60,943 bases of DNA. Source: Magnetococcales bacterium. GTDB taxonomy: Bacteria > Pseudomonadota > Magnetococcia > Magnetococcales > UBA8363. The number at the start of each line of letters is the position of its first letter. The first letter of the stretch is position 1. The notes below the pieces were generated by a model, which ran no database searches, was not told the DNA's origin, and was given only the letters and a program-made list of their open reading frames with translations. The stretch is from the NCBI GenBank assembly GCA_015228815.1, contig JADGCV010000028.1, positions 1 to 60,943 of the forward strand, written 5' to 3'. A program made the translations under genes and the position numbers. Below are positions 11,267-40,964 of the stretch, piece by piece.

Positions 11267-11596
11267 CGGACGATGAACCCAAGGTCAGAGGTGCAAAGGC
11301 ATTTTTTCGCCATCTTTAACTCCAGGGATGGGCCTGATCAAACCGTTCCCCGGCGCCGAAACCGAAGGCTGGGGATTGGAACCGGTTATGAGGGCATGCC
11401 AGAGGCCATTTCAATTGTCTGTAGGTATTTTTCGAAAGATATGGCACGAAATCAACGTCATAATTCTACCATCATCCATCGTGCGATGCAATGAGAATCA
11501 CAAGAGTTGAGTCATTTCAATTTTTAATCAAGTGGATTTTCATCGCTGCATATTCCGATGAATGTTGTTGACGGTGCTTTACGGTATGCCTGGTCG
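11267..11596. other. intergenic region upstream of the export operon
   Basis: About 330 bases separate the TolC-like start from the end of the 813-residue unknown gene; both are on the minus strand. It should hold the promoter of the export operon, and its left half is AT-rich. I could not pick out a convincing -35/-10 pair, an inverted repeat terminator or a credible small gene. Confidence 0.4.
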
Positions 11597-14038
11597 TCAT
11601 TTCTTCTCGTGGAGCCATGTTCCATCAACCAGACCCCGAAGAAAACGATAACGTTTCTTATCATAGGGGAATACTGAATGTGATCGGTCATCAATGATTC
11701 GATCCGGAAGAAGGCGATCGACTTCACGTCTTGCTTCTTCACGCTCGTTATCATCGGTGCCGACCCACCATCTGGCAACGCCGCGGATCACCCTGACGTA
11801 AAATGTGATGGTAATGGGAGGGGTGTTGTTTTTCATCTTTTCGATGCAGTTGGCCAGTTTCTGGTACCAGTTAAGGTAATCGGTTCCATTAATGGACTCG
11901 GGTCCTTCCCGGTAACGCAGCAGAGCGATCATGAAAATATTAACAAGGAGGTTTTGTTCAACCTGTAACAACACCCACGGGTTTGTCTGGTCATGGTCAA
12001 CAAGGGATTCAACCAATTCCTTCAGGCGCTTTTCCGTGGATTCCAGCGTAAACAAACTGAACTCTTGTGGAACTTTTGGACCTTTGTTCAGGGGAAATGC
12101 CCGGAAAAGGTGGGCCGTGACATGAACAGCCAGTGCTTCGGCGCGAAAACGCAGGTCGGTGGTGGATGTCGGGTTTGGACGGTTCCGGTCCCGTTCCAGC
12201 CGGTCCAGGGCCGTTTGCAAATGCTCCTGGACCCGAGGCAGGTCGTCGATGCTCCTGGCCATGTGCCGCCTGGTCACCGCCCGCATATATGCCGCTTCCC
12301 GCCCGGAGATTCGGCTCTTGCTATGGGAGAGGTATTCAGCGATATGGAACGCTTGTTTGGCCTGGATGTTGGCAATGTTCCAATAGCCTGCCATGGCATA
12401 AAGCTGGGCGGCTCCCAGGTAGAACGTATATCCAGTTGGGTCCTCTTCCCGAAGTTGGTCCAGGGCATTCCTGAATTCATCGGCTTTTGGGGAAGATCCA
12501 TTCGCGCTGGCCTGAATCAACAGGTCGAAGAAAGGAAGTTGAATGAACCTGAACGCTTGACTGAAGGTACTGAAAAAAATGGGTGGCGGATTGCGGACGG
12601 GAATCGATCCTTCTCTTCCCATCTGAAACAAGAGGATCCCTGTCAGAGTGCCGATACTAAAACACTCATACCAATTCCGTTCAACCTGGTCTTCCAGGAT
12701 TTTACGTATTTTGTCTCGTTCATCATCGATTCCCTGGGAAACCTTGAACAGATCGAAAATCCTGTTATCGATCGCCATTCGCAGACCCTGGTTTTGCGCG
12801 AGCGCCGGATCGCTTATCGGATGGACGGGCAGGACGGAGAAGCGATAATTGGTCCACTCCCTCTTGAAGTCCTGCAACAGTTCCGGGTGGGTCGTCAATG
12901 CCTCCCGTGCGGGTATTTCCAGTTCCTTGCGGCTGCACCCATCCTGGAACCCTTTGGAATAAGAGAGCACACTTTCCAGCCATTCCCAAAAACGTTTTTT
13001 ATTGTCATGTGGCGCAATATTTTTCTGGGCATCCACTCTTGGGGAAGGAAACAGGACGGAGGGCTCGGCAAGAAATGCCTTGGGATGGCGCAGGTATGAA
13101 TCGGCAAAATTGAGCTTCTTGCTGGAGGATGACCTGTTGGAAATGACTTTCCTGGCCTGAGCAAAAAGCAGGGGCGCACCAGTCAGAAGAACCAGCCGAT
13201 GCCGGGTTCCTTGCAGTTCGTTGTTGATCCACTCGACCCAGGCAAGCATCTCGGCGTCGCTGTCGAGTATGTTCAATTTTTCCTGGTTGAGGTCTCCGGT
13301 GAACTGTTCGATCAGTCCCAGATACCATTTTTCCTTGATGGAGGTGAACTCCTCCGAGACGACAATGGAATCAGGAGTTTTCAGGGCGTTGACCAGGGGG
13401 ACCGGTAACTCAGGCTTGGCAATCGCGGTCATTTCCCACAAGTTGGCCAGCCTTCGCATGCGATACAGATAGGCAAAGCGCAGCAGTTCTCCCGTGCTTC
13501 CCAAGCCGAACAATTGAGCACCGAGGGCCGGGGCTTTTCTTTCCAGCCAGTCTTGGCGCTGCCGGTCGTCGCTGAGTTTCGTCAATTCGTCCAATTCGGA
13601 TTTGATATGTCTCAACTCTGCAAAAGCCCGGTATTGTTCATCCTCGGCTGCTCTAATGATGGCGGCAAAGACCCGTTTCAGTTCTTTCCGGGTCGGGGGC
13701 AGCGCAAACAGGGGAAAATCGGAAGATGCCTTGAAGAAAATATGGTGGGCAAGGGCACGACCCAAGGCGATGGTCGCATTCCGTTCATCGTCATCGGAGA
13801 CATCACTGGGGAACACCTTTGCGTAACCTGGCCGATAATTTTTCTTACTTGTGTCAGGGAGGGCATCTTTGGGCTTGGCAAAAAATACGACCACATCGGC
13901 ATCGACAGCGTACCAGACATGGCCTCCTTCTTCTGCAACAAAATATTGATCATTCCGCCAACCGTCCATATACCGCCGCTGAGAGGCGGCGGCTTGAAAC
14001 AGGTCGATCAATTGGGATTGTGAATCCAATGGGGTCAT
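11597..14038 (-). CDS. unknown 813-aa protein, possible PIN-like N-terminal domain
   Basis: Not recognised as a named family. The first ~310 residues have the outline of a PIN-like nuclease fold: VWYAVDADVVVFFAKP (Asp46, Asp48) as a first strand with acidic residues, a helical acidic middle, and a late strand RHRLVLLTGAPLLF near residue 290, the place where PIN proteins often carry TGD. The last Asp is Ala here. The remaining ~450 residues look all-helical, like a repeat scaffold. It is the third gene of an ATGA-coupled trio (14038 overlaps the preceding stop by four bases). A toxin or defence-effector role is inference only. Confidence 0.75.
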   Translation of the reverse strand: MTPLDSQSQLIDLFQAAASQRRYMDGWRNDQYFVAEEGGHVWYAVDADVVVFFAKPKDALPDTSKKNYRPGYAKVFPSDVSDDDERNATIALGRALAHHIFFKASSDFPLFALPPTRKELKRVFAAIIRAAEDEQYRAFAELRHIKSELDELTKLSDDRQRQDWLERKAPALGAQLFGLGSTGELLRFAYLYRMRRLANLWEMTAIAKPELPVPLVNALKTPDSIVVSEEFTSIKEKWYLGLIEQFTGDLNQEKLNILDSDAEMLAWVEWINNELQGTRHRLVLLTGAPLLFAQARKVISNRSSSSKKLNFADSYLRHPKAFLAEPSVLFPSPRVDAQKNIAPHDNKKRFWEWLESVLSYSKGFQDGCSRKELEIPAREALTTHPELLQDFKREWTNYRFSVLPVHPISDPALAQNQGLRMAIDNRIFDLFKVSQGIDDERDKIRKILEDQVERNWYECFSIGTLTGILLFQMGREGSIPVRNPPPIFFSTFSQAFRFIQLPFFDLLIQASANGSSPKADEFRNALDQLREEDPTGYTFYLGAAQLYAMAGYWNIANIQAKQAFHIAEYLSHSKSRISGREAAYMRAVTRRHMARSIDDLPRVQEHLQTALDRLERDRNRPNPTSTTDLRFRAEALAVHVTAHLFRAFPLNKGPKVPQEFSLFTLESTEKRLKELVESLVDHDQTNPWVLLQVEQNLLVNIFMIALLRYREGPESINGTDYLNWYQKLANCIEKMKNNTPPITITFYVRVIRGVARWWVGTDDNEREEARREVDRLLPDRIIDDRSHSVFPYDKKRYRFLRGLVDGTWLHEKK

Positions 14039-22469: not shown

Positions 22470-23450
<981 letters not shown>

Positions 23451-23491
23451 AGGAATCTGTCGATACCAGCGGAAGTTCATGGAGAACCATC

Positions 23492-24922
23492 ATGTCGGCT
23501 TTGACCAAAGAGGAGGCCAGGGGCCTCATCCAGGAAGTTCTTGAACTCTATCCCGAGACTGCCAGGAAGGATCGCGCCCAGCACCTTGCGGTCAACGAAC
23601 AGGAGGGCCAGCAATCCAACTGCATTGTCTCCAATCGGAAATCGCTTCCGGGGGTGATGACGGCAAGGGGGTGCGCCTATGCCGGTTCCAAGGGGGTGGT
23701 CTGGGGTCCCATCAAGGATATGATTCATATTTCCCATGGTCCGGTGGGGTGTGGACAGTACTCCCGGGCGGGACGGCGCAATTATTATGTGGGTTATACC
23801 GGGGTCAACACGTTCGGGACGATGAATTTCACTTCCGACTTTCAGGAAAAGGACATCGTTTTCGGTGGCGACAAGAAACTGGCCAAAATGATCGATGAAA
23901 TCGATGCCCTCTTTCCATTGAACAAGGGGGTGACGGTGCAGTCGGAATGTCCGGTCGGCCTGATCGGCGACGACATCGAATCGGTGGCGCGAAAGAGTTC
24001 CGAATCTTTGGGCAAGCCCGTGGTTCCGGTCCGTTGCGAGGGATTTCGCGGGGTATCGCAATCGTTGGGGCATCATATTGCCAACGATACCATTCGCGAC
24101 TGGATTCTCGACAAACAGCCCAAGGTGGACGGTGGGCCTTATGATGTTGCCATCATCGGCGATTACAACATCGGTGGGGATGCCTGGTCGTCGCGTATTT
24201 TGTTGGAGGAGATGGGGTTGAACGTGGTGTCGCAGTGGTCCGGGGATGGAACCCTGGCGGAATTGCAGCGCTGTTCGAGCGTGCGCCTCAATCTGCTGCA
24301 CTGTTATCGTTCGATGAACTACATTTCGCGCCATATGGAGGCGAAATATGGCATCCCCTGGCTTGAATACAATTTTTTCGGACCGACGAAGATTGCCAAA
24401 TCGTTGCGGGAGATCGCGACCCATTTCGACGACACGATCAAGGAAGGGGCGGAGCGGGTGATCGCCAAATACACACCCATGATGGAGGCGATCATCGGCA
24501 GATACCGTCCGCGGTTGGCGGGAAAAAGGGTGATGCTTTATGTCGGCGGACTGCGTCCGCGGCATGTTGTCGGCGCCTATGAGGATCTGGGGATGGAGGT
24601 GGTGGGGACGGGCTACGAGTTCGGTCACAATGACGATTATGACCGGACGATGAAGGAAATGGGCGATGCGACCTTGTTGTATGACGATGTGACGGCGGTG
24701 GAGATGGAGCGGTTCGCCGAACGGTTGCGTCCCGATCTGATCGGGGCGGGGATCAAGGAAAAGTATGTGTTCCAGAAAATGGGGATTCCGTTTCGGCAGA
24801 TGCATTCCTGGGACTATTCCGGCCCGTATCACGGCTACGATGGATTTGCCATCTTTGCCCGGGACATGGACATGGCGGTGAACAGTCCTGTCTGGAGCCG
24901 GCTCAAGCCCCCCTGGAAATGA
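23492..24922 (+). CDS. nifD: nitrogenase MoFe protein alpha chain NifD
   Basis: 476 residues. P-cluster ligands are visible at Cys61 (RGCAYAG), Cys87 (GPVGCGQYS) and the Cys of [11 protein letters not shown]; the FeMo-cofactor site keeps the Cys and His regions further on ([26 protein letters not shown]). Catalyses N2 reduction with NifK. The ATG at 23492 has GGAG eight bases upstream. It follows nifH after 41 bases and precedes nifK after 58 bases containing a hairpin. Confidence 0.97.
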
Positions 24923-24938
24923 TCGCCTCCAGGCGATC
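24921..24938 (+). other. hairpin between nifD and nifK
   Basis: GATCGCC-TCCA-GGCGATC forms a perfect seven-pair stem with a four-base loop starting at the nifD stop codon. No T-run follows, so it is more likely an mRNA stability or processing element than a terminator. Confidence 0.5.
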
Positions 24939-24980
24939 GGTTCACCTCAAGCCACGCCACGGTGGCATCGGAAAGGAATC

Positions 24981-26561
24981 ATGACCATGAGTCAATCGGC
25001 AGAAAACATTCTTCCCTGTCATCCATTGTTTCGCGAACCGGAATATCGGGACATGTTGGCCGCCAAGGCGGCCCGGTTCGAAAACAAGGCCGACATGGAG
25101 AAACTGGAAGAAACATTTCAGTGGACCACCTCGCCCGAATACAAGGAACTCAATTTCAAGCGCGAGGCACTGACCATCAATCCGGCGAAGGCGTGTCAAC
25201 CGTTGGGTGCGGTTCTGTGCGCCCTGGGATTCAAGGATACCCTTCCCTATGTCCATGGATCGCAGGGGTGCGTCGCCTATTTTCGCACCTATTTCAACCG
25301 TCACTTCAAGGAACCCATCGCCTGCGTGTCCGATTCGATGACGGAGGATGCGGCGGTTTTCGGCGGGCATCCGAACATGGATGCCGGCCTCAAGAATGCC
25401 CATGCCCTTTACAAGCCCAACATCATCGCCGTATCCACGACCTGCATGGCCGAGGTGATCGGCGACGACCTCCATGCCTTCATCACCAACGCCAAGAAGA
25501 ATGGGCATATTCCCATGGAGGCGCATACTCCCTCCGCCCACACACCGAGCTTTGTCGGCAGTCATACCACCGGCTACGACAACATGATGGAAGGAATTCT
25601 GCGTTATTTCACCCTGAATGAGGTCCATGAGAAAAAGGTCGGGTCCAACGGAAAAATCAACATCATTCCCGGATTTGAGACCTACCTGGGCAATTACCGT
25701 TTGTTGCGTCGTTACATGGAGGAAATGGGGGTTGAATACACCCTGTTGTCGGATCCCTCGGAGGTCCTCGATACCCCTGCGGACGGTCATTATCGAATGT
25801 ATTCGGGGGGGACGACCGTTGAGGAAATCAAGGATGCCCCCAATGCCATCGATACCCTGATGGTTCAGCCGGTCTGCACCGGAACCAAGACCCGAAAGTT
25901 TATTCAGGATACCTGGGGCCAACCCGGGCAGGCGGTTCTTCCCCCCATGGGGCTGGAATGGACCGATGCCTTTCTGATGAAGGTGTCGGAGTTGACCGGA
26001 AAGGCGATCCCTCCGTCACTCGAATTGGAACGCGGGCGCCTGGTGGACATGATGGCCGATTCCCAGGCCTGGCTGCATGGACGCAAGGTGTCACTGTATG
26101 GTGATCCCGATTTTGTCATGGGAATGTGCAAGTTCATGATGGAGTTGGGGGTCGAGCCGTTGCATGTCCTGATTCACAACGCCAGCAAACAGGTTGGCAA
26201 GCGGTTGAAGAAGATCCTGGATGAAAGTCCGTTTGGAAAATCGGCGCAATTGCACATCGGCAGGGACCTGTGGCACCTGCGTTCCCTGGTATTCGAGGAA
26301 CGGCCCGATTTTCTGATCGGCAATTCCTATGGCAAGTTTATTCAGCGCGATACCCGGCACAAGGGAGAGGCGTTCGAGGTTCCTCTGGTGCGTCTTGGAT
26401 TTCCCATTTTCGACCGCCACCATCTGCACCGGAATACGACCCTGGGATATGAAGGGGGAATGTACATCCTGACCGAGGTGGTCAACACCCTGCTTGCGGA
26501 ACTGGATCGAAAAACCATGGGCTATGGCACGACCGACTACAACTTCGACCTGATTCGTTGA
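24981..26561 (+). CDS. nifK: nitrogenase MoFe protein beta chain NifK
   Basis: 526 residues. P-cluster Cys positions are recognisable in KACQPLGAVLCALGF, HGSQGCVAYFRTYFNRHF and STTCMAEVIGDD, with the Ser-rich CVSDSMTEDAAVFGG between. Partner of NifD in the heterotetramer. The ATG at 24981 has AAGGA just upstream; a second ATG two codons on is possible. It is followed by nifT after 15 bases. Confidence 0.97.
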   Translation: MTMSQSAENILPCHPLFREPEYRDMLAAKAARFENKADMEKLEETFQWTTSPEYKELNFKREALTINPAKACQPLGAVLCALGFKDTLPYVHGSQGCVAYFRTYFNRHFKEPIACVSDSMTEDAAVFGGHPNMDAGLKNAHALYKPNIIAVSTTCMAEVIGDDLHAFITNAKKNGHIPMEAHTPSAHTPSFVGSHTTGYDNMMEGILRYFTLNEVHEKKVGSNGKINIIPGFETYLGNYRLLRRYMEEMGVEYTLLSDPSEVLDTPADGHYRMYSGGTTVEEIKDAPNAIDTLMVQPVCTGTKTRKFIQDTWGQPGQAVLPPMGLEWTDAFLMKVSELTGKAIPPSLELERGRLVDMMADSQAWLHGRKVSLYGDPDFVMGMCKFMMELGVEPLHVLIHNASKQVGKRLKKILDESPFGKSAQLHIGRDLWHLRSLVFEERPDFLIGNSYGKFIQRDTRHKGEAFEVPLVRLGFPIFDRHHLHRNTTLGYEGGMYILTEVVNTLLAELDRKTMGYGTTDYNFDLIR

Positions 26562-30697: not shown

Positions 30698-31204
30698 TTA
30701 GCGTCGGACGCCATTCTTGAGCTGTTTGACTGCCGGTGTGGTGAAATCGAAACGTTGAAACCGACGTTGGGCCAGGGTGATCAGCCAGGGATTCAACCCG
30801 GCCCCGGGCCGCTGCGAAAGAATGCTGTCGAGAAGCCGTGCCTCGTTTCCGGGACCCGAAAGAAAACAGGCGAGAATCCAACCCACGCTCGGGCCTCGGG
30901 ACAAGCCGGAGTCGCAGTGAACCACCGTTGTTCCTGATCGCGGGCGCAAAATACGGGCAAATTCCTCCAGCTTCAAAATGTGAACCGAGGACGGTCCAGT
31001 CACTCCTTCCACGCTGCCGCTGTCATATCGGTCGAGAAACAGCAGGCGCAACACGGGGCAGGCCAGACTGGCGAGGATGGCCGGAGGTTCGGAGCCGGGA
31101 TCGCCAATGCTCACCACCCCGCGCAGGATTGTCGGATCCTCAAGGTGTTCAAGCCAGAGGATGGCCTCCTCCCGGCAAAAAAGGCGCACAGAAGGGTCGA
31201 TCAT
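30698..31204 (-). CDS. dual-specificity-type Cys phosphatase
   Basis: 168 residues with the Cys-phosphatase loop HCDSGLSR (Cys97, Arg103; HCX5R) in VVHCDSGLSRGPSVGWI. The general acid is likely in the preceding Asp-containing loop. The start at 31204 overlaps the kinase stop as ATGA; the longer open frame is a shadow of the kinase gene. It is the last gene of the nucleoside-type cluster. In the aminohexuronic nucleoside pathways a phosphate carried on intermediates is removed late, so a small-molecule phosphatase role is more likely here than protein tyrosine phosphatase. Confidence 0.82.
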   Translation of the reverse strand: MIDPSVRLFCREEAILWLEHLEDPTILRGVVSIGDPGSEPPAILASLACPVLRLLFLDRYDSGSVEGVTGPSSVHILKLEEFARILRPRSGTTVVHCDSGLSRGPSVGWILACFLSGPGNEARLLDSILSQRPGAGLNPWLITLAQRRFQRFDFTTPAVKQLKNGVRR

Positions 31205-31782
31205 CCTTGATTGGTTTCCAGTGTGGCGAGAAAATCGCGTGTTTCCCTGGCCCGTCGCAGTGCGATCATGCGTACTCCGGGGGTGGCGGCGATCCGGGCC
31301 AGCATTTCCGGGCGCGGGTGGTGGCGGAAGCGAAGTACCAGTGTCCAGAAACCAAGGTCCAGGCGTGGTCGGTGTCGATAGTCTGTCTGCCGGGCCATCG
31401 CCGCCGGCAGGCTGGAAGTGGCTCCGAACCAGCGCCGAATCCCGCGTGTCAGCACCCTCAAGGCGCACTGCCAGGGTGGCAGGTCGAGGAAGATCACGGT
31501 ATCGGCCCGTGACAGGCGGTTTGGGAAACAGCGACTGTAGTTGCCATCGATGATCCATTGTTCCAATGCCACGACCGCCGCCAATCGGGACAAAAATTCA
31601 GCCTCGGGCGGTCGGGTCCACTGGGCCTGCCAGTAGAGATCATCCAGATTGATGTGTGGCAGGCGCAGCGCCACCGCCAGGCGGCGGGCCAGGGTTGTCT
31701 TGCCACTGCCGGGTGAACCCACGACCAGGAGCCTCTGGGCGTTGTGGAGCGGTCTTGCCGTGACCTCAGGATGAGTGTTCAT
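31201..31782 (-). CDS. small P-loop kinase (adenylate-kinase-like)
   Basis: 193 residues with Walker A GSPGSGKTT at 22-30, a DLYW segment after the second strand (INLDDLYWQAQW) and WIIDGNY, typical of the small nucleotide/topology-modulation kinase group. Substrate unknown. It starts 17 bases inside the end of the epimerase-like gene, with AGGA seven bases upstream. Nikkomycin/polyoxin pathways use a kinase for a transient 2'-phosphate; this gene is a candidate for that step by context, not by demonstrated homology. Confidence 0.8.
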   Translation of the reverse strand: MNTHPEVTARPLHNAQRLLVVGSPGSGKTTLARRLAVALRLPHINLDDLYWQAQWTRPPEAEFLSRLAAVVALEQWIIDGNYSRCFPNRLSRADTVIFLDLPPWQCALRVLTRGIRRWFGATSSLPAAMARQTDYRHRPRLDLGFWTLVLRFRHHPRPEMLARIAATPGVRMIALRRARETRDFLATLETNQG

Positions 31783-32800
31783 GGCATTCCTTCCGGGGTG
31801 AAGAACAATAGGTGGACCAGTCGTGACGTTGTTGCATGATCCGGTTGTCGTAGGCGGGATTGGTTTCCGGCGCGACCAGCAGTCCCCTCTTGACCGCGTC
31901 GATCAGTCCATCGGCGGCATCGGTCAAACGTTCCCGCGGGTGAAAGCCGAGCCGACGTTCCACAAGACGCGATGATATACGGTAGGAACGTTCATCCGCC
32001 GTATCGGTGGCGGAAGTTTGAACCACTACGTCCGGACCCATGTGGGCTGCCAGGGTTTGGGCCGATTGCGCCAGGGTATGGTTGCCGTAGGCGGCATTGA
32101 AGATCGCCCCGGAAACGGTCTCCTCGGGCGCTTCGAGAACGCGCAGATACAGGGCGACAAGATCGGACAGGGACAGATGGGGTCGGTATCTCTGGCTCCG
32201 CTCCACCACGATGCGGCGTTTAAGATAACCTTCGATGACAAACCGGTTGAAGGTCAGATCCATCCTTTGCCGGGGTGCGTAACCGCACACCGTCGCCGCC
32301 CGCAGGCTTACGGGAGCGAAGCCCCGCCGTCTGGTTCCGAGGAGCAGATGGTCGCAGGATGCCTTGTGCCTGGCGTAATCGGTCAGGGGCATGGGGGGAT
32401 GGGTTTCGTCAACGAACGATTCACTGGAGTTTCCCGTGCCGTAGACACTGCACGAGGAGGCCTGAATCCAGCGGTCGATCCCCGCGGACAATGCCGCTTC
32501 CAGTGTGTTTTCGAACCCCTTGAGGTTGACGTCCCGGGCGATGGCGGGATCGAGGCGAAAATCGGGGTCATTGGACAGAAAAGCCAGGTGGATGACACGT
32601 TCCTGACCCCGCATCGCCTCCCGAAGGTGGGACGTATCCCGGATGTCGCCTTCGATGAGACGCAGACGCGGATGATCGGGCAGAGTGCTTGGCCCGAAGA
32701 TCAAGGCGTCGAGGACCGTTACGTCATGATTGGCGGCAAGCAGGGACGGGACCAGACGGCTGCCGATGTAGCCGCAGCCGCCGGTGACCAGCACCCGCAT
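31766..32800 (-). CDS. NAD-dependent epimerase/dehydratase (extended SDR)
   Basis: 344 residues. Rossmann motif TGGCGYIGS at the N-terminus, GDIRD after the fourth strand, and the catalytic SSCSVYG and YARHK (Tyr142, Lys146). It should oxidise or epimerise a sugar carbon. The start at 32800 shares one base with the stop of the oxygenase gene (TGATG). Extended SDRs are not part of the core aminohexuronic route as I know it, so it may make a tailoring change special to this product. Confidence 0.85.
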   Translation of the reverse strand: MRVLVTGGCGYIGSRLVPSLLAANHDVTVLDALIFGPSTLPDHPRLRLIEGDIRDTSHLREAMRGQERVIHLAFLSNDPDFRLDPAIARDVNLKGFENTLEAALSAGIDRWIQASSCSVYGTGNSSESFVDETHPPMPLTDYARHKASCDHLLLGTRRRGFAPVSLRAATVCGYAPRQRMDLTFNRFVIEGYLKRRIVVERSQRYRPHLSLSDLVALYLRVLEAPEETVSGAIFNAAYGNHTLAQSAQTLAAHMGPDVVVQTSATDTADERSYRISSRLVERRLGFHPRERLTDAADGLIDAVKRGLLVAPETNPAYDNRIMQQRHDWSTYCSSPRKECHEHSS

Positions 32801-33462
32801 CAACGTTGCTCCCGGACCGCCCCTTGGGGCCGCCAGGTTTCGATTTGCAGTGTGCGCCGCAACAGTGGCGCGGTGGCGGAGACGGGACTGACCCCGTGCC
32901 AGGAATCGTCGCTGGGAACCAGCAGCATGCCGTTGCCGGTGACGGGGGGCAATTCATGAAACGGTTCGAAATCATCACCGCGACGGCGGTAGAGCTGGAG
33001 CAATCCGCCCCATTCCGGTTCCCACCGATGTCCGAAATACAATACATTGGTCGCCGCTTTGGTCAGGTGGTCGGTATGGATGGAAATATCGTTGCCGGCG
33101 GAAAAGACAAAGAAGCCGACATCGATGGGGTAGTCGTCGATATTCTCACCGATTTTCTCGCCCACCACCCGGCGATATTCCGGTCCGGTCAATGCCTTGA
33201 TGAGCGCCTGCCAGGCGGGATCCAGGGTCGAGCAGGATTCGAGGGGCCGGTTTTTTTCCACTGCTTTGCGCACCAGGAAACTGTAGGTTTTGTCTCCCCC
33301 CTGTTCGCGTCGATGACGGACGAATCCCTCCTCGGGAAAATGGTCGGTCAGGTGTTGCGCCTTGACGGGGGGGATCGCCTCCTTCCACAGGGCGAAACGA
33401 AACGGCTCGGAGGCGAGCGGGGTTGTGCGAATCACATCGAGGTCAAGACAGTCTTGGGTCAT
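32800..33462 (-). CDS. Fe(II)/2-oxoglutarate oxygenase
   Basis: 220 residues with a facial-triad pattern: HTD (His129, Asp131) in ISIHTDHLTKAATNVLYF and distal His189 in SWHGVSPV, then Arg202 in LRRTLQIE for 2-oxoglutarate. The fold fits small prolyl-hydroxylase-like oxygenases. ATGA overlap with the SDR gene. Second of two such enzymes in the cluster, matching the two dioxygenases (NikI and NikM type) needed to shorten and oxidise octosyl acid in known pathways. Confidence 0.85.
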   Translation of the reverse strand: MTQDCLDLDVIRTTPLASEPFRFALWKEAIPPVKAQHLTDHFPEEGFVRHRREQGGDKTYSFLVRKAVEKNRPLESCSTLDPAWQALIKALTGPEYRRVVGEKIGENIDDYPIDVGFFVFSAGNDISIHTDHLTKAATNVLYFGHRWEPEWGGLLQLYRRRGDDFEPFHELPPVTGNGMLLVPSDDSWHGVSPVSATAPLLRRTLQIETWRPQGAVREQR

Positions 33463-34220
33463 GGCGAATTTTCCTGGTTGACGCCACCGGGTATTTCCGG
33501 ACAGCGGGGACGATGTTCGATGATGGGATCGACGCCTGGACCATGGGGTTTGCGGCGCATGATCTGGGTTTCGCGAAAAGGTTCTCTTTGGGCCATCGCC
33601 AGATCCCAGATGATGCGGGCGACCGCCACGGGATCGAGAAATTTGTGACGATCAGGGGCGGTTGCTTCCCATTTTTCCCAGAAGGTGGGAATGTTCAGTC
33701 CTCCCGGATTGATCAGGGTCACCCGGGAACCGGGACGGTCGCGCACCAGTTCCACGGCAAGGTTGCGGGTAAACGCGGTCTGCGCCGCCTTGAGTCCGCA
33801 GTACAGGGCCTCGTCCTCGCGCAACCGCCATGATGAAACCGAGCCGATGGTCACAAGATGGAACGGTTCGGCCTGGTGGCACAGAAAACGTCGCAGGAAT
33901 TGCACCGGACCCCGAAAATGCAGATCGACATGCAGGTCAATCTGGGAAGCATCGGTCTGTTGCAGCGGCGCCTTGAGAAAGGCGCCGGCGACCCAGAAGA
34001 AGAAGTCCACCGGGGTGTCGGGAAGCGGTGCCCGTCGCACCTGTTCCGGAGATTGAAGATCGATGACGTACAACTTCGCTCCGGGAGGCGTTTCGGTGAT
34101 GGCGTTCGGTTCGCCGGCGCTGCGACCGTAGATGATGGGCGACAGGTTTCGCCTGGCTCCTTCACGGGCCAATTCGAGTCCCAGCCCTTTGGTGGCTCCA
34201 AGCAGCAAGGCCGAGGTCAT
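33459..34220 (-). CDS. short-chain dehydrogenase/reductase
   Basis: 253 residues from the ATG at 34220, which makes ATGA with the enolpyruvyl transferase stop. The cofactor motif is GATKGLG (variant of TGXXXGXG), WVAGAF replaces NNAG, and the active-site pattern IGSVSSW ... YCGLK gives Ser, Tyr and Lys. Likely a classical SDR acting on a sugar or polyol hydroxyl of the nucleoside intermediate. The C-terminal ~50 residues are Pro/Arg-rich and less conserved in type. Confidence 0.8.
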   Translation of the reverse strand: MTSALLLGATKGLGLELAREGARRNLSPIIYGRSAGEPNAITETPPGAKLYVIDLQSPEQVRRAPLPDTPVDFFFWVAGAFLKAPLQQTDASQIDLHVDLHFRGPVQFLRRFLCHQAEPFHLVTIGSVSSWRLREDEALYCGLKAAQTAFTRNLAVELVRDRPGSRVTLINPGGLNIPTFWEKWEATAPDRHKFLDPVAVARIIWDLAMAQREPFRETQIMRRKPHGPGVDPIIEHRPRCPEIPGGVNQENSP

Positions 34221-35635
34221 GGTTGCGGACTCCATTTTATGTGTGGGTCTCGGGTTGTCCCTGGGACCGGGGAGGGGTACGTTGGCTGGGGCGACCCGTC
34301 CAGGTCGCAACGGGCGCCCATGCCGGCCAGAACGTCCAGAAGGTTGGCATAGCCTCGGTCCAGGTGATGAACGTTTTGTACCGTCGTGGTTCCTGGTGCG
34401 GTCAGCGCCGCCAACACCAGTACCGCGGCGGCCCGCAGATCACAGGCGACCACCGTCCGCTCTCCCTGGGTCAGGGAAGAGGGGGTGATGGTGATCCCCC
34501 CTTCCGTTGGATGAATGCATGCCCCAAGGCGGGACAACTCATGGGCGTAGGAGAAACGGGTTTTCCATACCGCCTCGGAAATTCGGGCGGGGCGGTCGCC
34601 ATCCAGCAGCATGAGGGCGAAAAACGGCTGGTGATCGGAATAGATGCCGACACTGGTGACTTCGATGTCCTGGGAGGCGAGACGAGGTGACGGGGTGACT
34701 TCCAGTAGATCCTTGCCCCAGTCGAGACCGACTCCCATGGCGTCGAGCAGGGCGATTTCCGCCGCCAATCCCTGACGCAGTCGCTTGACGGTCAGCCCGG
34801 TGAGGGTCAGTGACACCTTGCAGTGTTGCGACAGGGCGATGAAGGTGATCACTTCGCTCAGGCAGGTGACCACATGGTGGTGCAGGGCCGGTGGCGGCTG
34901 GGGAACTGTATCGGGGGGAATCAGGATCAAATCCCGGCCCTCGCGGCGCACGATGAAACCGGCCTGGTCGAGCAGGAGCAACAGTTCGGTGACATCGGGT
35001 TTGGGATAGGGATTGCGGATGCGGGTCGGGCCGGATCGGGTGCAGGCGGCGGCAAGGATGGCGGTCTTGGTGACCCCGGAAACCAACGGTCCGGTGAGCA
35101 GGTCGGGCCGTTCCGAAAAAGACATGCAATCGATGGTGCAAGCGGTGAATCCAGAGGTCTCGCCCTGGATCTCATGCCCTTCCTGACGGAAACGGGCACC
35201 GAATCGTTCCAGGACCGCGAGCATGTGATGCACCGGCCTCTGGGGGCCTGAACCACTGCCATCCAGGGGGCAGCCACCGCTCGGACCGATCCGGACGCGC
35301 TTGAATCGTCCCAGGAGTACCGGCAGAAAATAGAGGACGCCATGGACGCGCCGACTTGACGATTCGGGAATGTCGGACAGAAAAAAACCGCGTGTGTCCA
35401 GGGTCAGGGTACCATGATTCCAATGGGCGACGCCGTTACCCTGGCGGATGAGTTCACAGAGAACCTTCACGTCTTCGATATCGGGAACGTTGGTCAGCAC
35501 GACCTGTTGTTCCAGGGCGATGGCCAGGGCGATCAATCCGACCGTGGCGTGCTTGAAGCCGCCGAGGGCAACCGTTGCCGGATGCAGGGGGGCCGGGGTG
35601 ATTCGTGCATGTCGGGGAAGGGGGGGATGGGTCAT
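34217..35635 (-). CDS. MurA/NikO-like enolpyruvyl transferase
   Basis: 472 residues of the EPSP synthase/MurA superfamily. Lys28 in GGFKHAT matches the MurA active-site Lys22, and Cys122 in GPSGGCPL matches the MurA loop Cys115; the tail GYANLLDVLAGMGA is also MurA-like. It would transfer enolpyruvate from PEP. In nikkomycin (NikO) and malayamycin (MalO) pathways the acceptor is the 3'-OH of UMP or pseudouridine monophosphate, and neighbours here are the other genes of that pathway. A cell-wall MurA role is unlikely in this context. ATGA overlap with the aminotransferase gene sets the start; the longer open frame upstream is antisense-like noise over that gene. Confidence 0.85.
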   Translation of the reverse strand: MTHPPLPRHARITPAPLHPATVALGGFKHATVGLIALAIALEQQVVLTNVPDIEDVKVLCELIRQGNGVAHWNHGTLTLDTRGFFLSDIPESSSRRVHGVLYFLPVLLGRFKRVRIGPSGGCPLDGSGSGPQRPVHHMLAVLERFGARFRQEGHEIQGETSGFTACTIDCMSFSERPDLLTGPLVSGVTKTAILAAACTRSGPTRIRNPYPKPDVTELLLLLDQAGFIVRREGRDLILIPPDTVPQPPPALHHHVVTCLSEVITFIALSQHCKVSLTLTGLTVKRLRQGLAAEIALLDAMGVGLDWGKDLLEVTPSPRLASQDIEVTSVGIYSDHQPFFALMLLDGDRPARISEAVWKTRFSYAHELSRLGACIHPTEGGITITPSSLTQGERTVVACDLRAAAVLVLAALTAPGTTTVQNVHHLDRGYANLLDVLAGMGARCDLDGSPQPTYPSPVPGTTRDPHIKWSPQP

Positions 35636-36792
35636 GAACCATCCCCTTCCTGGGAGGAAAAGGATTCCATTTCCGACAGCACCGTGGTCATGAGGGTCGG
35701 GTCGCCGATCGTCATTCTCAGGCAGCTTCGAAGTCCGTGGGGACCATCCTCGAACCGTTTGACCTGTATTTTTCGGGTTCGCAGATGGTCGGCCAACAGG
35801 GAGGCGGTGCCGGACTGGCCGGTGTCCATCAACAGGAAGTTGGTTTCCGAGGGTGGAATGCGCCAGGAGGGAAACAGGTGCGACACCCTCCGAGCGACAA
35901 CCTTGCGGGTAGCCTCGATCCGGTGATGGAAATTGGCGACATCGCTGGCATTGTCGAAACAGAAGGCGAGGTAGCCCGCGGCCATGGCGTTGACCGTATG
36001 GACGCCATACCACCGATGGAGATAAGCGGCGAGGGCGGCGCTGGTGATGACCAGGCCCAGCCGCAATCCCGCCATGCCGCAGTTCTTGGAGAAGCTGCGC
36101 AGAATGACGACGCCGGAATAACGATGCAGCAGGGGCAGATGCGGCACCGACGCGAAGGGGGCATAGGCCTCGTCGATGAGCAGCAGATGGTTGCCCTGGG
36201 CGCAGAGATCGCATAGCCGTTGCATTTCGGCCAGAGGGATTCGGGTACCGGTGATGCCATTGGGATTGGTCACCACGACAAGCGCCGGCGGCGAGGTCGT
36301 CAGTGGCTCCCGGGCCAGATCGACGATCGATTCGCCCCAGAGATCGGTCGGATGATTCAGCGGGGTCACGGCCACTCCGGCCAGGGCGGCGTAATGATTA
36401 TAGTTGGAATAGTTCGGGGTTTGCAGAATCAGACGACCGATGGAACGGCCCAGAAGGCCAAGCACCATGCGAATGGCGCTGTCCGAACCGGCGTCCATCA
36501 CCAGGGACGTATGGGGAACGTCATAGAAACGGGCGGTCGTGCGAATCAATCCTGGCCAGTTGGGATACCGGGTGACGTTGGTCTCGGTCGCCTGTTCGAG
36601 GTAACGACGAAAGAGGGCGCGTGTTTCGGGGAGGTCGGATTCATTGCTGGAAAGGTTGTGGACGTGCCGGTAATCGGCTTTTTCCCGGACGTTGAGTTTC
36701 ATGACTGCCGGATCGAGGAATGGCAGGGTATCGAACAGGCAGGGGCGGGTCGGGTCGATGGGCGTGGCGGAATCCACGGTCTGGTCAGCCAT
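35632..36792 (-). CDS. HisC-like PLP aminotransferase
   Basis: 386 residues of the fold-type I class I/II family closest to histidinol-phosphate aminotransferase. NPNGITG holds the PLP-binding Asn, LLIDEAYAPF the pyridine-binding Asp207, SFSKNCGMAGLRLGL the Schiff-base Lys236 and phosphate-binding Arg. In the nikkomycin pathway NikK, also HisC-like, aminates the keto acid made from octosyl acid to give the amino acid centre of aminohexuronic acid; the same step is proposed here. Overlaps the radical SAM gene end by eight bases. Confidence 0.87.
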   Translation of the reverse strand: MADQTVDSATPIDPTRPCLFDTLPFLDPAVMKLNVREKADYRHVHNLSSNESDLPETRALFRRYLEQATETNVTRYPNWPGLIRTTARFYDVPHTSLVMDAGSDSAIRMVLGLLGRSIGRLILQTPNYSNYNHYAALAGVAVTPLNHPTDLWGESIVDLAREPLTTSPPALVVVTNPNGITGTRIPLAEMQRLCDLCAQGNHLLLIDEAYAPFASVPHLPLLHRYSGVVILRSFSKNCGMAGLRLGLVITSAALAAYLHRWYGVHTVNAMAAGYLAFCFDNASDVANFHHRIEATRKVVARRVSHLFPSWRIPPSETNFLLMDTGQSGTASLLADHLRTRKIQVKRFEDGPHGLRSCLRMTIGDPTLMTTVLSEMESFSSQEGDGS

Positions 36793-38113
36793 GGGTCGAG
36801 TCCCGACGCTGGGGGATCATTTCCATCACGGCGGTTGGTTTGCTGTCGCGTTCGAAGAACATGCGGTAGTAGGCGTGGCGCTCCTGGAGATCCGGATGGT
36901 CGGAAACGAACAGATGGCGGTTGAAGCGGGCAATTGTTCGGTGGTCCATTCCGGGGGCGAGCAGTTGGTAGGGGGTATGGATTGAAGTTCGCAATCGCGC
37001 TCCTGCCGCGGACACCGCCTCAACGGTAGCCCGGACTCCGGCCAGGGTATCTCCGGGCAGTCCCAGGATGATGAAACAGTTGAGTTCGATGCCCGCACTG
37101 CGGCACCAGTATGCCAGGGAGTCGAACTGGTCCCTGTATGTGTGTTTGAGCCTTGGCAGGCCCTGCATGGGGACCGAATCCAGTGTTTCGATGCCGACGC
37201 TCAGGCGAACGCAGCCGGCCTGGCCCATCAGCGCTACCAGTTCCCGGTCCAGAAGGTGCGGCACGGTCACGCATTTCCACGGCCATGGAGACCCGAGGGC
37301 GATCATTTCCTGACACAAATCACGCACCCATTGGGCCTTGAGCGTAAAGGTCGGGGCGTAGAAACTGACATATTCGAACGGTTTTTTCCGGAAGGACGAA
37401 CGTATGTAATCCAGGGTGCGTTCGACATCGAGACGCCGTTCCGTCGTCCCCTGGAGGGGCGGGACATCGCAGAAGGCGCAGCCGACCGGGCATCCTCGGG
37501 CCACGGGGACCACGAGTTCCAGTCGCTCGGGGATGCCACAAAACTTGTGGTGGTCATCGAGATACAGGCGGCTGTAGGCCTCATGGGGGATTTCATCGAC
37601 CTCGGGCAGGATCCACGCTTCGGGCGGCAGGGGGGTGGATTTGCCTGCCTGGGAAAAGGAACCGTCGTCACGACGCACCGCCACACCAGCCACATAAGGT
37701 TTCTTTTCGGATGTGGCCAGATGATCCAGGTAGGATGCCACTGCGGCTTCCGGGTCTCCCGAGCCGTGGACGGCATCCAGATCCAGGGTGAAGAACAGGT
37801 CGGGAAGGCGGCAACTCAGCCGCCCGGCGGTCAGAATGCGTGCCTGGGGGGACAAGGCCCGGATGTAGGCAATGGTGCGCTCGAAGGTATCGGTGGCATC
37901 GAAATCATTGATGAGCACCACCAGATCGAATCCCTGGATCAATATCTCGCCGAGCGCCCGCCAGGTCATGTTGAGGGCGGCTCCGTCGAGGCAGGTGACC
38001 TGTGTATCCCGTGACCGGGCGCGCAGATAGGCCCCGATCATGAAGACCGACAAATGGTGTCCGGCGTTGAAATAGCTCGGTATGTAGGGAGGGATGAGAC
38101 ACAAAATGTTCAT
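36785..38113 (-). CDS. NikJ/PolH-like radical SAM enzyme with B12-type N-domain
   Basis: 442 residues. The first ~140 have the layout of a cobalamin-binding-like domain (MNILCLIPPYIPSYF), and the SAM cluster motif is CX3CX2C at Cys208, Cys212, Cys215 (CPVGCAFC). Later GIETLD and NCFIILGLPGD are radical SAM features. In nikkomycin/polyoxin synthesis NikJ/PolH closes the 3'-enolpyruvyl nucleotide onto C5' to form the bicyclic octosyl acid phosphate. The start at 38113 overlaps the phosphatase stop as ATGA. Homology to NikJ is judged by context and layout, not by alignment. Confidence 0.83.
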   Translation of the reverse strand: MNILCLIPPYIPSYFNAGHHLSVFMIGAYLRARSRDTQVTCLDGAALNMTWRALGEILIQGFDLVVLINDFDATDTFERTIAYIRALSPQARILTAGRLSCRLPDLFFTLDLDAVHGSGDPEAAVASYLDHLATSEKKPYVAGVAVRRDDGSFSQAGKSTPLPPEAWILPEVDEIPHEAYSRLYLDDHHKFCGIPERLELVVPVARGCPVGCAFCDVPPLQGTTERRLDVERTLDYIRSSFRKKPFEYVSFYAPTFTLKAQWVRDLCQEMIALGSPWPWKCVTVPHLLDRELVALMGQAGCVRLSVGIETLDSVPMQGLPRLKHTYRDQFDSLAYWCRSAGIELNCFIILGLPGDTLAGVRATVEAVSAAGARLRTSIHTPYQLLAPGMDHRTIARFNRHLFVSDHPDLQERHAYYRMFFERDSKPTAVMEMIPQRRDSTHG

Positions 38114-38943
38114 GTCGGTCCCTGCGTCATGGTTGAACGGCCATAATGAAGGCGGATGGCTTGGAGATGATGTTCCTGGACGCCACATTGCTTAAGCCAA
38201 GCCCCGATTCCCCCGAAGGCCTCCTCGATCATTTCAAGGGTTTGGCGCATGGTTTCTCCACGGGCATCCAGTCGGACGGCGTATTCCTCCGGGGTTTCAC
38301 CCTTTCGTTCCCACTTGTCGCGGAAATGATGAAGATGGGGCAGCAGGTGGGCGCCGCTTTGTTCATGGTCCCGGGCGATGACCGGGGTGTTGGCCCCCAG
38401 GACGTGGAGCAACAGCATGGCGACCAGGCTGGTGCGGTCCTTTCCGGCATGGCAGCCAAAAAGAAGCGGCGCCCCCTTCAAGGCCGCAAGCCAGGCGAAC
38501 AGATCGGACACATGGGCGGCCATATCGTCAAGGATGGAAAAATAATACCGGGCATAGGCTTTGTTGCCTGGACGGCGTCCGGTGATGGCCGAGGCGTCAC
38601 GGGCCATCACTGGCCAATTGAGAATGGCGATGCCGACCTGTTCCAGGGATAAGGCCCTGCCGTAGCGGCGCAGTTCGGATTCGCCACGCAAATCCAGAAA
38701 GAAGCGAATCCCCCCATGATCCCGCAACCGTCGGGCCTGGTCAGGTCGGAGAATCGTTACATCCCCGGTGCGGAACAGGCCATGGCAAACGTTCTCACCC
38801 TCCGCCAGTGGACGAAGATTGAGTCCGATGCCATGACCGTTCCATGGCGTATCGTGACCTGGCTCGGCGTCGAAGGCATGGCCATTCCCGAGGGATCGAC
38901 CGGGACAGTCCGTCGTGGCGCCAGGATTCCGAAGGTTATTCAA
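38110..38943 (-). CDS. NikL-like Cys phosphatase
   Basis: 277 residues with loop CHAGKDR (Cys164, Arg170) in LFGCHAGKDRTSLV and the substrate-recognition segment FFLDLRGESEL, as in the Y_phosphatase3 family. The TTG at 38943 is chosen: GGAGG lies six bases upstream and the preceding oxygenase stop is at 38961. Known aminohexuronic nucleoside clusters have a phosphatase of this kind (NikL, PolJ) that removes phosphate from nucleotide intermediates. Second gene after the promoter region at 39.65 kb. Confidence 0.83.
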   Translation of the reverse strand: MNNLRNPGATTDCPGRSLGNGHAFDAEPGHDTPWNGHGIGLNLRPLAEGENVCHGLFRTGDVTILRPDQARRLRDHGGIRFFLDLRGESELRRYGRALSLEQVGIAILNWPVMARDASAITGRRPGNKAYARYYFSILDDMAAHVSDLFAWLAALKGAPLLFGCHAGKDRTSLVAMLLLHVLGANTPVIARDHEQSGAHLLPHLHHFRDKWERKGETPEEYAVRLDARGETMRQTLEMIEEAFGGIGAWLKQCGVQEHHLQAIRLHYGRSTMTQGPT

Positions 38944-38960
38944 ATTTTTCCTCCGGTCAT

Positions 38961-39605
38961 TTATCGGGCAGGAAGATCTTTTTCGCGGGTCCCGGGGCGG
39001 TAGAAATGGACGGTGATGGTATTGCGCGAATCCGGGGCGACGCGACTGATGGGGGTGATGTTGTGCCATGAGTTGTCCGCCCGGCCAATCAGGACCGACA
39101 GCCCCAGACGCGGCACGATTTCGAAGGCCACGTCATCCTCGTCATGGCTGGCAAGAATTTGCAGGACGCCGCCGTTGCGTTTGTTCCAGCCCTGATTGAG
39201 GTAGATCACATGGGTCAGCAGTTTCTGCGCCTGATCGTCATGCATGGCGAAAACGGTGCTGGCATCCGACCGCCACATGGCCGCTTCCATGGGGGCATCC
39301 TTGAGATTGATTCCGGTGACCTTGGCCAGGGCTTCCCGATAGGCGGAACTGGTGAGGGTTTCGCCCAGTTCGTTGTAGGATTTGGGCAGTTCATCGCTGT
39401 TGAAGGTGTCCTTGGCCGCCAATGGGACAAAGGGGCGGCGCATGTACCGTCCGTTGAGGTGACGGCGGTAGCGAAAGGAATCGACGGGAAAATCGTCACA
39501 CATCTGGATTGATTTTGGGTTCGAGGGAAGAATCCCGTCGGCGATTCCCCATTGAAAGGGAAAATCGAACATCTTGGCATTGCGAATGGCTTCCAGGTTG
39601 AGCAT
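38961..39605 (-). CDS. Fe(II)/2-oxoglutarate oxygenase
   Basis: 214 residues. Facial triad His122, Asp124 (MHDDQ) and His181 (SWHNITPI), with Arg194 in RNTITVHFYRP for the co-substrate. The ATG at 39605 has AAGGA eight bases upstream. It is a distant relative of the other oxygenase at 32800-33462 (shared spacing and SWH-x-x-x-P), which suggests successive oxidations of one scaffold. First gene after the TruD-like gene, with a 132-base gap. Confidence 0.85.
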   Translation of the reverse strand: MLNLEAIRNAKMFDFPFQWGIADGILPSNPKSIQMCDDFPVDSFRYRRHLNGRYMRRPFVPLAAKDTFNSDELPKSYNELGETLTSSAYREALAKVTGINLKDAPMEAAMWRSDASTVFAMHDDQAQKLLTHVIYLNQGWNKRNGGVLQILASHDEDDVAFEIVPRLGLSVLIGRADNSWHNITPISRVAPDSRNTITVHFYRPGTREKDLPAR

Positions 39606-39651
39606 GTCGATGATCCTTTGTCTGAAGATGAATATATACGTCGTTCACAAG

Positions 39652-39680
39652 ACTGTAAATCATCGAATCAATCCGGTCAA
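39652..39680 (-). promoter_or_regulatory. possible sigma-70 promoter for the oxygenase operon
   Basis: The minus strand reads TTGACC, 17 bases, TACAGT in an AT-rich gap about 50 bases before the oxygenase start. A second AT-rich run (TATATATTC) lies closer to the gene. This would let genes 30698-39605 be read apart from the TruD-like gene. Confidence 0.35.
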
Positions 39681-39737
39681 GGAGGTTTGATCGGTCGTCA
39701 CATAAAATATAAATATTTATTCAGAGTTCGGTTATTT

Positions 39738-40835
39738 TCAACCAAGAAAAGATGCATTTCTGCCATCATTGACCCGCATGTGGATTCCGAAACGGAGGAG
39801 AAGTTGACGCATCAGCATGGTGGCATATCCGCCTGTAGGCAACATGAAGGAGACCGGGAGTGCCACCCTGCCTGGATGCAGGGCATCGTCCATGGGAGGA
39901 TCGGCAAAGATGTTGGTAGTGATCACGGCTGGCCTGCGGCGGCGGATGGGAGGTGTGTTTTCCTTCGGTTTCCATTGATGGCATTCGTATTCCAGCACCG
40001 GTTCCACGGCACATTGAGACAGATCGCTGGGGAGCCATAGATCGAACAAGTCTCCGAGTCGAAACGGCGCACCTGCGGACGATGTGGCGTGGAACCGTAA
40101 CGAAGCCAAGGTGTTCCAGCGCATGCTGTTGAAGGCATCGACGTAAAAGCCAAGAATTTTAGGATGATTTTTTTCCAGCCATTCCAGAAGGTCGTTACCC
40201 TTGGGGATGATGTGTTCCCCGGCTTCTTCGATCAACCGTTGCGCCCTTTGCCGATCCCGCTGGACGAGGCTTTCGCCGATGAGGTGGTTGGTGGGGGGAT
40301 GGCCGGGGAGTCCAAAGCGTTGCAGATCGTAGTAGTTCGCCATGGAGAAATGAATGTTGCTTTTCAGGGAATCCCATATCTTCCCGGCAGTGGCGACGTT
40401 CAAATTACGTACAACGATTCGGAAGCTGTTGCCGAACAGGTTGCGTGGCCGGATCGGATGATGAGAATGACCTTCGATGGAATGCAGACGAAGAAAGGAG
40501 CCGGAAGTCCCTGGTTGGAAACATGTGTTGAACGCTTCGAGATCCTTGGTGGTCAGGCGCCGACGGACGGAACAGAGTTGACGGGTAATACCGTCCTCGT
40601 CCTTGAGACCGGCGCTGCCGACCTCCTGAACCGGAAGATCGAAAAAGGCGCCAATCGTTTTTTCCGCATCGAAGGTGGTCCATCCTCCCTTGTCGAGCCA
40701 GACATGGGTATATTCCCCCTCGTTGGTGGTCCAGGGTGAGATCAAGGGGACCTCGACCACGCGAAAGTCGGAATGAATGCACTTGAGGATTGCCGGCGGT
40801 TCCACCGTGATTCGATTGCCTTCCGGAATTGCCAT
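39738..40835 (-). CDS. TruD-like pseudouridine synthase
   Basis: 365 residues of the TruD family: DFRVVEVP, catalytic Asp near residue 79 in AGLKDEDGITRQ, NLFGNSFRIVVRNL and NYYDLQRFG are the recognisable family positions. The start at 40835 has AAGGA six bases upstream. TruD modifies tRNA, but in the malayamycin cluster a TruD-like enzyme (MalD) supplies pseudouridine monophosphate as the C-nucleoside precursor. Being placed directly upstream of NikO/NikJ/NikK-like genes argues for that role. The sequence departs from housekeeping TruD around the active site (EDGI for RRAV), which fits specialisation. Confidence 0.85.
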   Translation of the reverse strand: MAIPEGNRITVEPPAILKCIHSDFRVVEVPLISPWTTNEGEYTHVWLDKGGWTTFDAEKTIGAFFDLPVQEVGSAGLKDEDGITRQLCSVRRRLTTKDLEAFNTCFQPGTSGSFLRLHSIEGHSHHPIRPRNLFGNSFRIVVRNLNVATAGKIWDSLKSNIHFSMANYYDLQRFGLPGHPPTNHLIGESLVQRDRQRAQRLIEEAGEHIIPKGNDLLEWLEKNHPKILGFYVDAFNSMRWNTLASLRFHATSSAGAPFRLGDLFDLWLPSDLSQCAVEPVLEYECHQWKPKENTPPIRRRRPAVITTNIFADPPMDDALHPGRVALPVSFMLPTGGYATMLMRQLLLRFGIHMRVNDGRNASFLG

Positions 40836-40964
40836 GATCATTCCTTGAGGATTTGAGGGATTGTATGAACCCGCGGTCCAAGGACACCATTGGGGATTCT
40901 TGCGAAATTAAAAGAACTATGAATTCTAAATGTTATGATAATATAGCGGATTGAAAAGGACAAA

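Follow-up and report, generated by a model that had tools for sequence, protein, structure and literature searches.

What do eleven genes that lie side by side on the minus strand between positions 30698 and 40841 of a 60,943-nucleotide stretch from a Magnetococcales bacterium make together? The stretch, called the window here, is the entire contig JADGCV010000028.1 (C28) of assembly GCA_015228815.1, a genome of 4.2 Mb that is 99% complete, and an earlier interpretation of its letters and reading frames (the sequence-only reading) had proposed a cluster for a C-nucleoside. Our analysis supports this proposal through the trees of three enzymes, the enolpyruvyl transferase, the radical S-adenosylmethionine (SAM) enzyme and the TruD-like pseudouridine synthase, and the cluster very probably encodes a C-linked octosyl or aminohexuronic nucleoside pathway, with the sugar built on pseudouridine. 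It appears to be a complete octosyl C-nucleoside pathway in Magnetococcales. The kind of pathway is a known one; what is new, as far as our searches reach, is the organism, the tailoring genes and the split layout.

All eleven leftward frames of the sequence-only reading were found and form one tight unit, mostly overlapping as it had described, with overlaps of 1-17 bases, by coordinates, at eight of the ten junctions. The order is TruD-like enzyme, oxygenase A, Tyr-type phosphatase, radical SAM enzyme, aminotransferase, enolpyruvyl transferase, short-chain dehydrogenase/reductase (SDR), oxygenase B, extended SDR, small kinase and a small protein with an HCX5R motif. The remaining junctions are a gap of 132 bp between the TruD-like gene and oxygenase A, and one of 17 bp between oxygenase A and the phosphatase if the latter starts at TTG 38943. 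At a Pfam threshold of E 0.01 the products match EPSP_synthase, Aminotran_1_2, Radical_SAM, Y_phosphatase3, two 2OG-FeII_Oxy, AAA_18, Epimerase, adh_short and TruD, and the last gene (30701-31204) is alone among the eleven in having no match. By Pfam no ligase or transporter occurs among the eleven genes, which agrees with the sequence-only reading. The G+C content of the cluster is 59.8%, against 55.5-55.6% on either side, which is compatible with horizontal arrival and no proof of it.

Among the genomes compared, the closest relative within the genus is the bin Magnetococcales bacterium DCbin4 (MurA 91% identical, the next 88%); its MamK, a magnetosome protein, has served in experiments (PMC10653835). 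It carries nine of the cluster genes, 70-84% identical and in the same order, at the end of its contig C19, where the phosphatase gene is cut by the contig end, and TruD (72%) and oxygenase A (87%) at the end of its contig C1. These two ends have exactly 12 bases in common, so we take the cluster to be a single unit in DCbin4 too. Ratios of nonsynonymous to synonymous substitution (dN/dS, Nei-Gojobori) between the window and DCbin4 are 0.12-0.27 for ten of the eleven genes, the phosphatase being excluded, and the cluster genes are under purifying selection. Among 48 genomes of the class no further one has a radical SAM protein at a comparable score (next best E 1.5e-33); a gene with that E value in genome G007 was rejected as a distant cluster, its neighbours (a P-type ATPase, a glycosyltransferase and others) being unrelated by eye.

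Three enzymes and their trees

The gene at 34217-35635 is predicted to encode a NikO-type nucleotide enolpyruvyl transferase. Of the PDB structures it resembles NikO most (4fqd, E 4.5e-67), against 1.3e-33 for the top MurA structure, and the active-site lysine and cysteine pointed out by the sequence-only reading are present as K28 and C122. Against the NCBIfam murA model it scores 170.3 bits and three further proteins from the NikO side 172-219, all below the cut-off of 392.7, which the 11 MurA proteins of our tree all pass. Two more EPSP-family genes occur in the genome, a MurA (574 bits) and an AroA (407.5 bits), both above their own NCBIfam cut-offs. In a tree of 24 proteins the transferase joins NikO 4fqd and cluster proteins in a group of 13 with support of 100/100, separate from the 11 MurA rows, among which stands the MurA of the same genome; the expectation that it would not group with housekeeping MurA therefore stood, and a MurA paralogue is ruled out by the structure scores, the model scores and the tree. 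NikO 4fqd, our positive control, is nearly identical in the tree to a Streptomyces eurythermus protein, and for this reason the Streptomyces loci L036-L038 are taken as nikkomycin-type. The relatives came from a scan of genome contigs with the transferase in which 80 of 158 were kept; eight of these are NikO-type (loci L031-L038) and the other 72 do not exceed 30% identity, ten of which were checked and are MurA, and 62 were left out of the tree. Our trees also omit the C-terminal fragment of the NikO from Mesorhizobium, as well as the second of the two Mesorhizobium records. Plasmid pAtK84c of Rhizobium rhizogenes K84 contributes one row on the NikO side, and 29 kb of it yield no match to the radical SAM enzyme; its transferase (31% identical) lies with an efflux pump and asnB (L028 12575-20736), perhaps for another nucleoside antibiotic.

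The radical SAM enzyme (36785-38113) carries the CX3CX2C motif noted earlier as C208, C212 and C215, the motif reported for PolH (PMC5365060), and is predicted to be an octosyl-acid-phosphate synthase of the PolH/NikJ kind. It falls in a clade of 11 cluster proteins (98/94), separate from 15 other radical SAM proteins, which agrees with the claim that it is not a generic member of the superfamily and places it with nikkomycin-type clusters; the tree leaves out the proteins of L017, L019, L021 and L023 and of Streptomyces G246. Its identity to cluster proteins outside Magnetococcales is 45-51%. A protein of Streptomyces G433 (31-32%) was rejected as a cluster member, being the sole match in 18 kb.

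The TruD-like enzyme (39738-40841; Pfam TruD 5.3e-36) more likely starts at 40835, the choice of the sequence-only reading, than at 40841, judging by eye from the spacing to the ribosome site. A tree of 19 TruD proteins splits cleanly (100/100) into ten and nine. The ten are the window protein, five from other NikO-type loci, three from pseudouridimycin-like loci and one from a Gloeothece plasmid, so that the TruD-like claim is upheld with partners from NikO-bearing or pseudouridimycin-like loci; the nine are ordinary TruDs, and all but one come from other Magnetococcia. The aspartate of the TruD KD motif is catalytic, and here the motif reads KDED in all ten nucleoside-cluster proteins (40593-40604 in the window) versus KDR in all nine ordinary ones. 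The ten also have NYYDxQRFG throughout, and HL[IV]G where the ordinary TruDs have a gap. On 19 proteins so far KDED is an observation and no established rule, and it might serve as a simple sequence mark separating nucleoside-making from tRNA-modifying TruDs. The NCBIfam score of 103.2 bits lies under the cut-off of 172.2. TruD-family genes occur in 12 of the 48 class genomes and in two of the eight of the genus, both cluster-bearing (three of the other six are less than 80% complete), and the window genome has no second one. We read the window TruD as a predicted member of the nucleoside-making lineage; an ordinary tRNA TruD is ruled out by tree and motif, and RNA could still be its substrate. 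Outside DCbin4 the nearest relative is the protein of the Gloeothece verrucosa plasmid (L029 4000-13790), whose gene adjoins sulfotransferase, histidine phosphatase, glycosyltransferase and ABC transporter genes; NikO was not matched there.

Gene content and the proposed route

Eight further genes make up the rest of the cluster. Downstream of TruD come Fe(II)/2-oxoglutarate (Fe/2OG) oxygenase A (38961-39605; Pfam 2OG-FeII_Oxy_4 3.6e-8), with HXD...H present, and a Cys phosphatase of the Tyr-phosphatase type (38110-38943; Y_phosphatase3 1.5e-31), PolJ/NikL-like, with CHAGKDR by eye and TTG 38943 as its likely start. The HisC-like aminotransferase (35632-36792; Aminotran_1_2 2.7e-36) resembles NikK and PolI. 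Beyond the transferase follow a classical SDR reductase (33459-34220; adh_short 5.6e-13), oxygenase B (32800-33462; 2OG-FeII_Oxy_4 9e-9), with HTD...H present, and an extended SDR of the epimerase/dehydratase fold (31766-32803; Epimerase 1.2e-36), likely starting at ATG 32800, with a 32% homologue in the Staphylococcus gallinarum cluster. The small P-loop kinase (31201-31782; AAA_18 4.1e-7) is a candidate 'cryptic' kinase like PolQ2, MalE and PumH, of which PumH is reported to be 42% identical to the other two (PMC7955054). The last gene (30698-31204), 80% identical in DCbin4, encodes the small HCX5R protein, a possible second phosphatase judging from that motif, seen by eye; its predicted model has a predicted local distance difference test (pLDDT) score of 37.5 and was not used.

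Six core gene types of the cluster match the aminohexuronic acid (AHA) set of PMC5365060, and the phosphatase, aminotransferase and two Fe/2OG oxygenases of that set are all present. How constant these types are was judged from 12 NikO-type loci besides the window, in about eight lineages: eight from the transferase scan, two Mesorhizobium plasmids and the loci of Streptomyces G165 and G246; the K84 plasmid, with NikO alone in 29 kb, was excluded from the count. Four Streptomyces clusters among the loci are nearly the same (DNA identity to G246 of 89.8-96.3%), and the two plasmids are near-identical as well. In the S. gallinarum contig (7.2 kb) and in an actinobacterial metagenome-assembled genome (MAG; 21 of 51 kb covered), gene absences may reflect ends. 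The radical SAM enzyme was found in 12 loci, the aminotransferase in 12 (27-75% identical), the phosphatase in 11, the kinase in 11 and an Fe/2OG oxygenase in 10; the loci had been found through NikO (10) or radical SAM (G165 and G246), so the counts of those two genes are not independent. TruD was found in six, the extended SDR in two, and the short SDR and the HCX5R protein in one each. TruD thus looks like an optional first step added to a core that is fixed, being present in six of the 12 loci against 10-12 for the core types, and among the loci seen the short SDR and the HCX5R protein are Magnetococcales additions.

What was observed is which genes are present, the families into which they fall, their catalytic motifs, and their conservation and selection; from this we infer the chemical steps, their order and the product as follows. 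The TruD-like enzyme would convert uridine, either as uridine monophosphate (UMP) or in RNA later broken down, to its C-linked isomer. The NikO-type enzyme would then transfer enolpyruvate from phosphoenolpyruvate to the 3'-OH, and the radical SAM enzyme would abstract the C5' hydrogen and close the ring, giving a C-linked octosyl acid 5'-phosphate. Phosphate would be added by the small kinase, at the 2'-OH by analogy, and removed by the phosphatases. Oxidation may fall to the two Fe/2OG oxygenases, installation of the amine to the aminotransferase, and a further oxidation state or stereochemistry to be set to the two SDR enzymes. A carbamoyltransferase and a DUF6071 protein encoded at a second locus, described below, would probably finish the molecule.

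The proposed pathway and its rivals

Several points weigh against this assignment. All that is known of the organism is its assembled genome. NikO proteins from clusters with a TruD gene do not unite in a single clade, and their tree is therefore silent on UMP versus pseudouridine monophosphate as substrate; one supported neighbour of the transferase is the S. gallinarum NikO, from a genome in which TruD had no match at E 0.001. Among solved structures the radical SAM enzyme has no close counterpart, AprD4 being the best at 3.5e-16. Oxygenases A and B keep their metal motif, and a tree with long branches leaves them unresolved as orthologues of particular nikkomycin oxygenases. The kinase also resembles the FlaR-like family PRK08118 (116 bits, below its cut-off of 215). 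Finally, one study describes the nucleoside source of PumJ-type pathways as an open question, notes that such synthases typically use tRNA, and finds that SapB prefers unphosphorylated pseudouridine (PMC10127198).

If the nucleoside is C-linked, its sugar may be a monocyclic aminohexuronic one, with C6'-C7' cleaved as in polyoxin, and not bicyclic as in malayamycin or ezomycin, a possibility that we put somewhat short of an even chance. All six AHA gene types are there, including the two oxygenases and the aminotransferase. However, these types recur in the malayamycin cluster as MalO, J, L, M, I and K (PMC8724604), which means that content cannot separate the two, and TruD and the unlinked carbamoyltransferase lean to the malayamycin side. 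The word 'bicyclic' of the sequence-only reading is accordingly not carried here, because the six core types serve the octosyl and aminohexuronic branches alike. The malayamycin A cluster (mal) of Streptomyces, compared by description and not by sequence, likewise contains TruD-like, NikO, NikJ, phosphatase, two Fe/2OG oxygenase and aminotransferase types, and its kinase MalE (PMC7955054) and carbamoyltransferase have candidate counterparts here, the latter on another contig. The earlier use of MalD for a TruD-like enzyme conflicts with the review that names MalD a carbamoyltransferase (PMC8724604). What differs is the Magnetococcales host and the extra two SDR enzymes and HCX5R protein; no O-methyltransferase of the MalF kind was recognised in the cluster, and a Mesorhizobium methyltransferase used as query had no match in the window.

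A second alternative, which we regard as improbable, is that UMP, as in nikkomycin, is the substrate of NikO and the radical SAM enzyme and leads to an N-linked aminohexuronic nucleoside, and that the TruD-like gene is a tRNA modifier standing beside the operon by chance. The 132 bp gap before the next gene, the lack of another TruD in the genome and the nearness of the transferase to the NikO of the TruD-free S. gallinarum would fit such a picture. It is at odds with the TruD clade, in which the five NikO-type and three pseudouridimycin-like rows all have KDED and not KDR, with the absence of TruD from six of the eight genus members, which is not housekeeping-like in the genus, and with the same TruD neighbour in DCbin4. 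The nikkomycin and polyoxin clusters themselves (nik/pol) have the six core gene types and the small kinase in common with the window. In the three nikkomycin-type Streptomyces clusters NikO is 36-37% and the radical SAM enzyme 45-46% identical to the window proteins; unlike the window, those three genomes have no TruD match, and the peptide ligase of nikkomycin and polyoxin has no counterpart among the eleven genes, to which that search was confined. That the operon is instead a housekeeping or cell-wall unit, in which a MurA paralogue stands beside radical SAM and tRNA genes unrelated to it, has next to no probability, for although the Pfam and NCBIfam families matched are those of MurA, HisC and TruD, the NCBIfam scores fall under cut-offs that the genome's own MurA and AroA exceed, the transferase and radical SAM trees refute it, and the TruD tree is also against it.

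Two further known systems were compared with the cluster. A Mesorhizobium plasmid cluster (CP050294, NZ_CP050298) shares TruD, NikO, radical SAM (49%), kinase, oxygenase, aminotransferase, phosphatase and relatives of the carbamoyltransferase and DUF6071 protein. It differs in having the latter two within the cluster, a methyltransferase gene and no matched SDR genes, and its NikO frame is interrupted in both records. This malayamycin-like cluster (L026/L027 5383-16120) occurs in two Oxytropis-nodule strains and, given the interruption, may be inactive or misread. The pseudouridimycin clusters (pum/sap) have the TruD-like and small kinase types in common with the window. The three pseudouridimycin-like loci, so labelled from TruD plus kinase in Streptomyces, all have kinase homologues (over 90-111 residues) and no NikO or radical SAM match. 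Relatives of PumJ in diverse taxa were noted before (PMC7955054), and it is therefore nothing new in itself that such genes extend beyond Streptomyces.

A second locus and other relatives

In the Mesorhizobium clusters the DUF6071 protein and the carbamoyltransferase adjoin the aminotransferase. The carbamoyltransferase has no match in the window, and relatives of both lie on another contig of the same genome, C40, the carbamoyltransferase being 51% identical. There, and in DCbin4, the pair is preceded by a polyketide synthase (PKS) of 1985-1994 aa with KS-AT-ACP-KR-DH domains and, by motif, a phosphopantetheinyl-transferase-like end, 75% identical between the two genomes. The block occupies 5648-14007 of the stretch C40:18000-34400 in the window genome and 625-9012 of C19:12001-32000 in DCbin4, where it begins 4.4 kb beyond the cluster. 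Within the 48 class genomes DUF6071 is confined to these two, and so is the C-terminal part of the PKS; four other genomes searched for the carbamoyltransferase gave weaker matches only in three and none in one. Since DCbin4 is the closest relative, this co-occurrence with the cluster counts as one event and not as independent support. Independent support comes from the carbamoyltransferase inside the C-nucleoside clusters of two other lineages, in the actinobacterial MAG next to the aminotransferase (same type, 56-59% identical), and from DUF6071 inside one. The carbamoyltransferase and DUF6071 protein are thus likely parts of the pathway, as judged from these neighbourhoods, and the PKS possibly so. 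The suggestion of the sequence-only reading that the product may be simpler than the Streptomyces antibiotics is weakened by this locus.

Compared from end to end, the PKS shares 40.4% identity with the one on the C-1027 plasmid, presumably the enediyne PKS SgcE. Seven C-1027 neighbour genes (two DUF1702, E4, E5, E6, E9 and E10, the labels being inferred) have no counterpart around it, apart from a piece of E5 (E 0.002) inside the PKS itself, and when the genomes were searched in full, E5 was matched weakly in DCbin4 (E 1.5e-4) and not at all in the window genome. Because the genes of the enediyne cassette lack counterparts near the PKS, an enediyne product seems unlikely, and a polyene would be the plainer guess. 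We speculate that the cluster and the C40 operon are two halves of one pathway, whose product would be a carbamoylated octosyl C-nucleoside with a polyene-like chain from an enediyne-type iterative PKS; this is a long shot, and we know of no example of such a nucleoside-polyketide hybrid. If the second locus does belong to the pathway, it would point to an unseen kind of hybrid molecule.

For mechanistic work, the window offers three enzymes in independent and diverged form: a NikO, an octosyl radical SAM enzyme and a TruD of the nucleoside type. In the open-licence literature we found nothing linking magnetotactic bacteria to nucleoside antibiotics, or to an enediyne or polyketide synthase, and a 2015 genome-mining review expected little from the cultured magnetotactic cocci as sources of new secondary metabolites (PMC4306944). 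Among 392 sampled Streptomyces genomes the radical SAM enzyme (E <=1e-40) occurs in five, TruD (1e-8) in three others and both in none, so that this sample yielded no malayamycin-like cluster; in 19 sampled Amycolatopsis genomes TruD occurs in one, the known GM8 locus.

Two further loci deserve mention in their own right. A contig of Staphylococcus gallinarum DSM 20610 (L032 1-7180) carries NikO, radical SAM, aminotransferase, phosphatase, kinase and extended SDR genes, an octosyl-type cluster in a species of Bacillota. The actinobacterial MAG locus (L034 7208-20834) has TruD, NikO, radical SAM, two carbamoyltransferases and, by eye, a gene like those of nonribosomal peptide synthetases, and is a candidate for a peptidyl C-nucleoside. 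In the window itself, the nitrogenase structural genes nifH, nifD and nifK (22491-26561, by eye) lie a few kb from the cluster, and other flanking genes resemble, again by eye, those for chemoreceptor and two-component signalling proteins.

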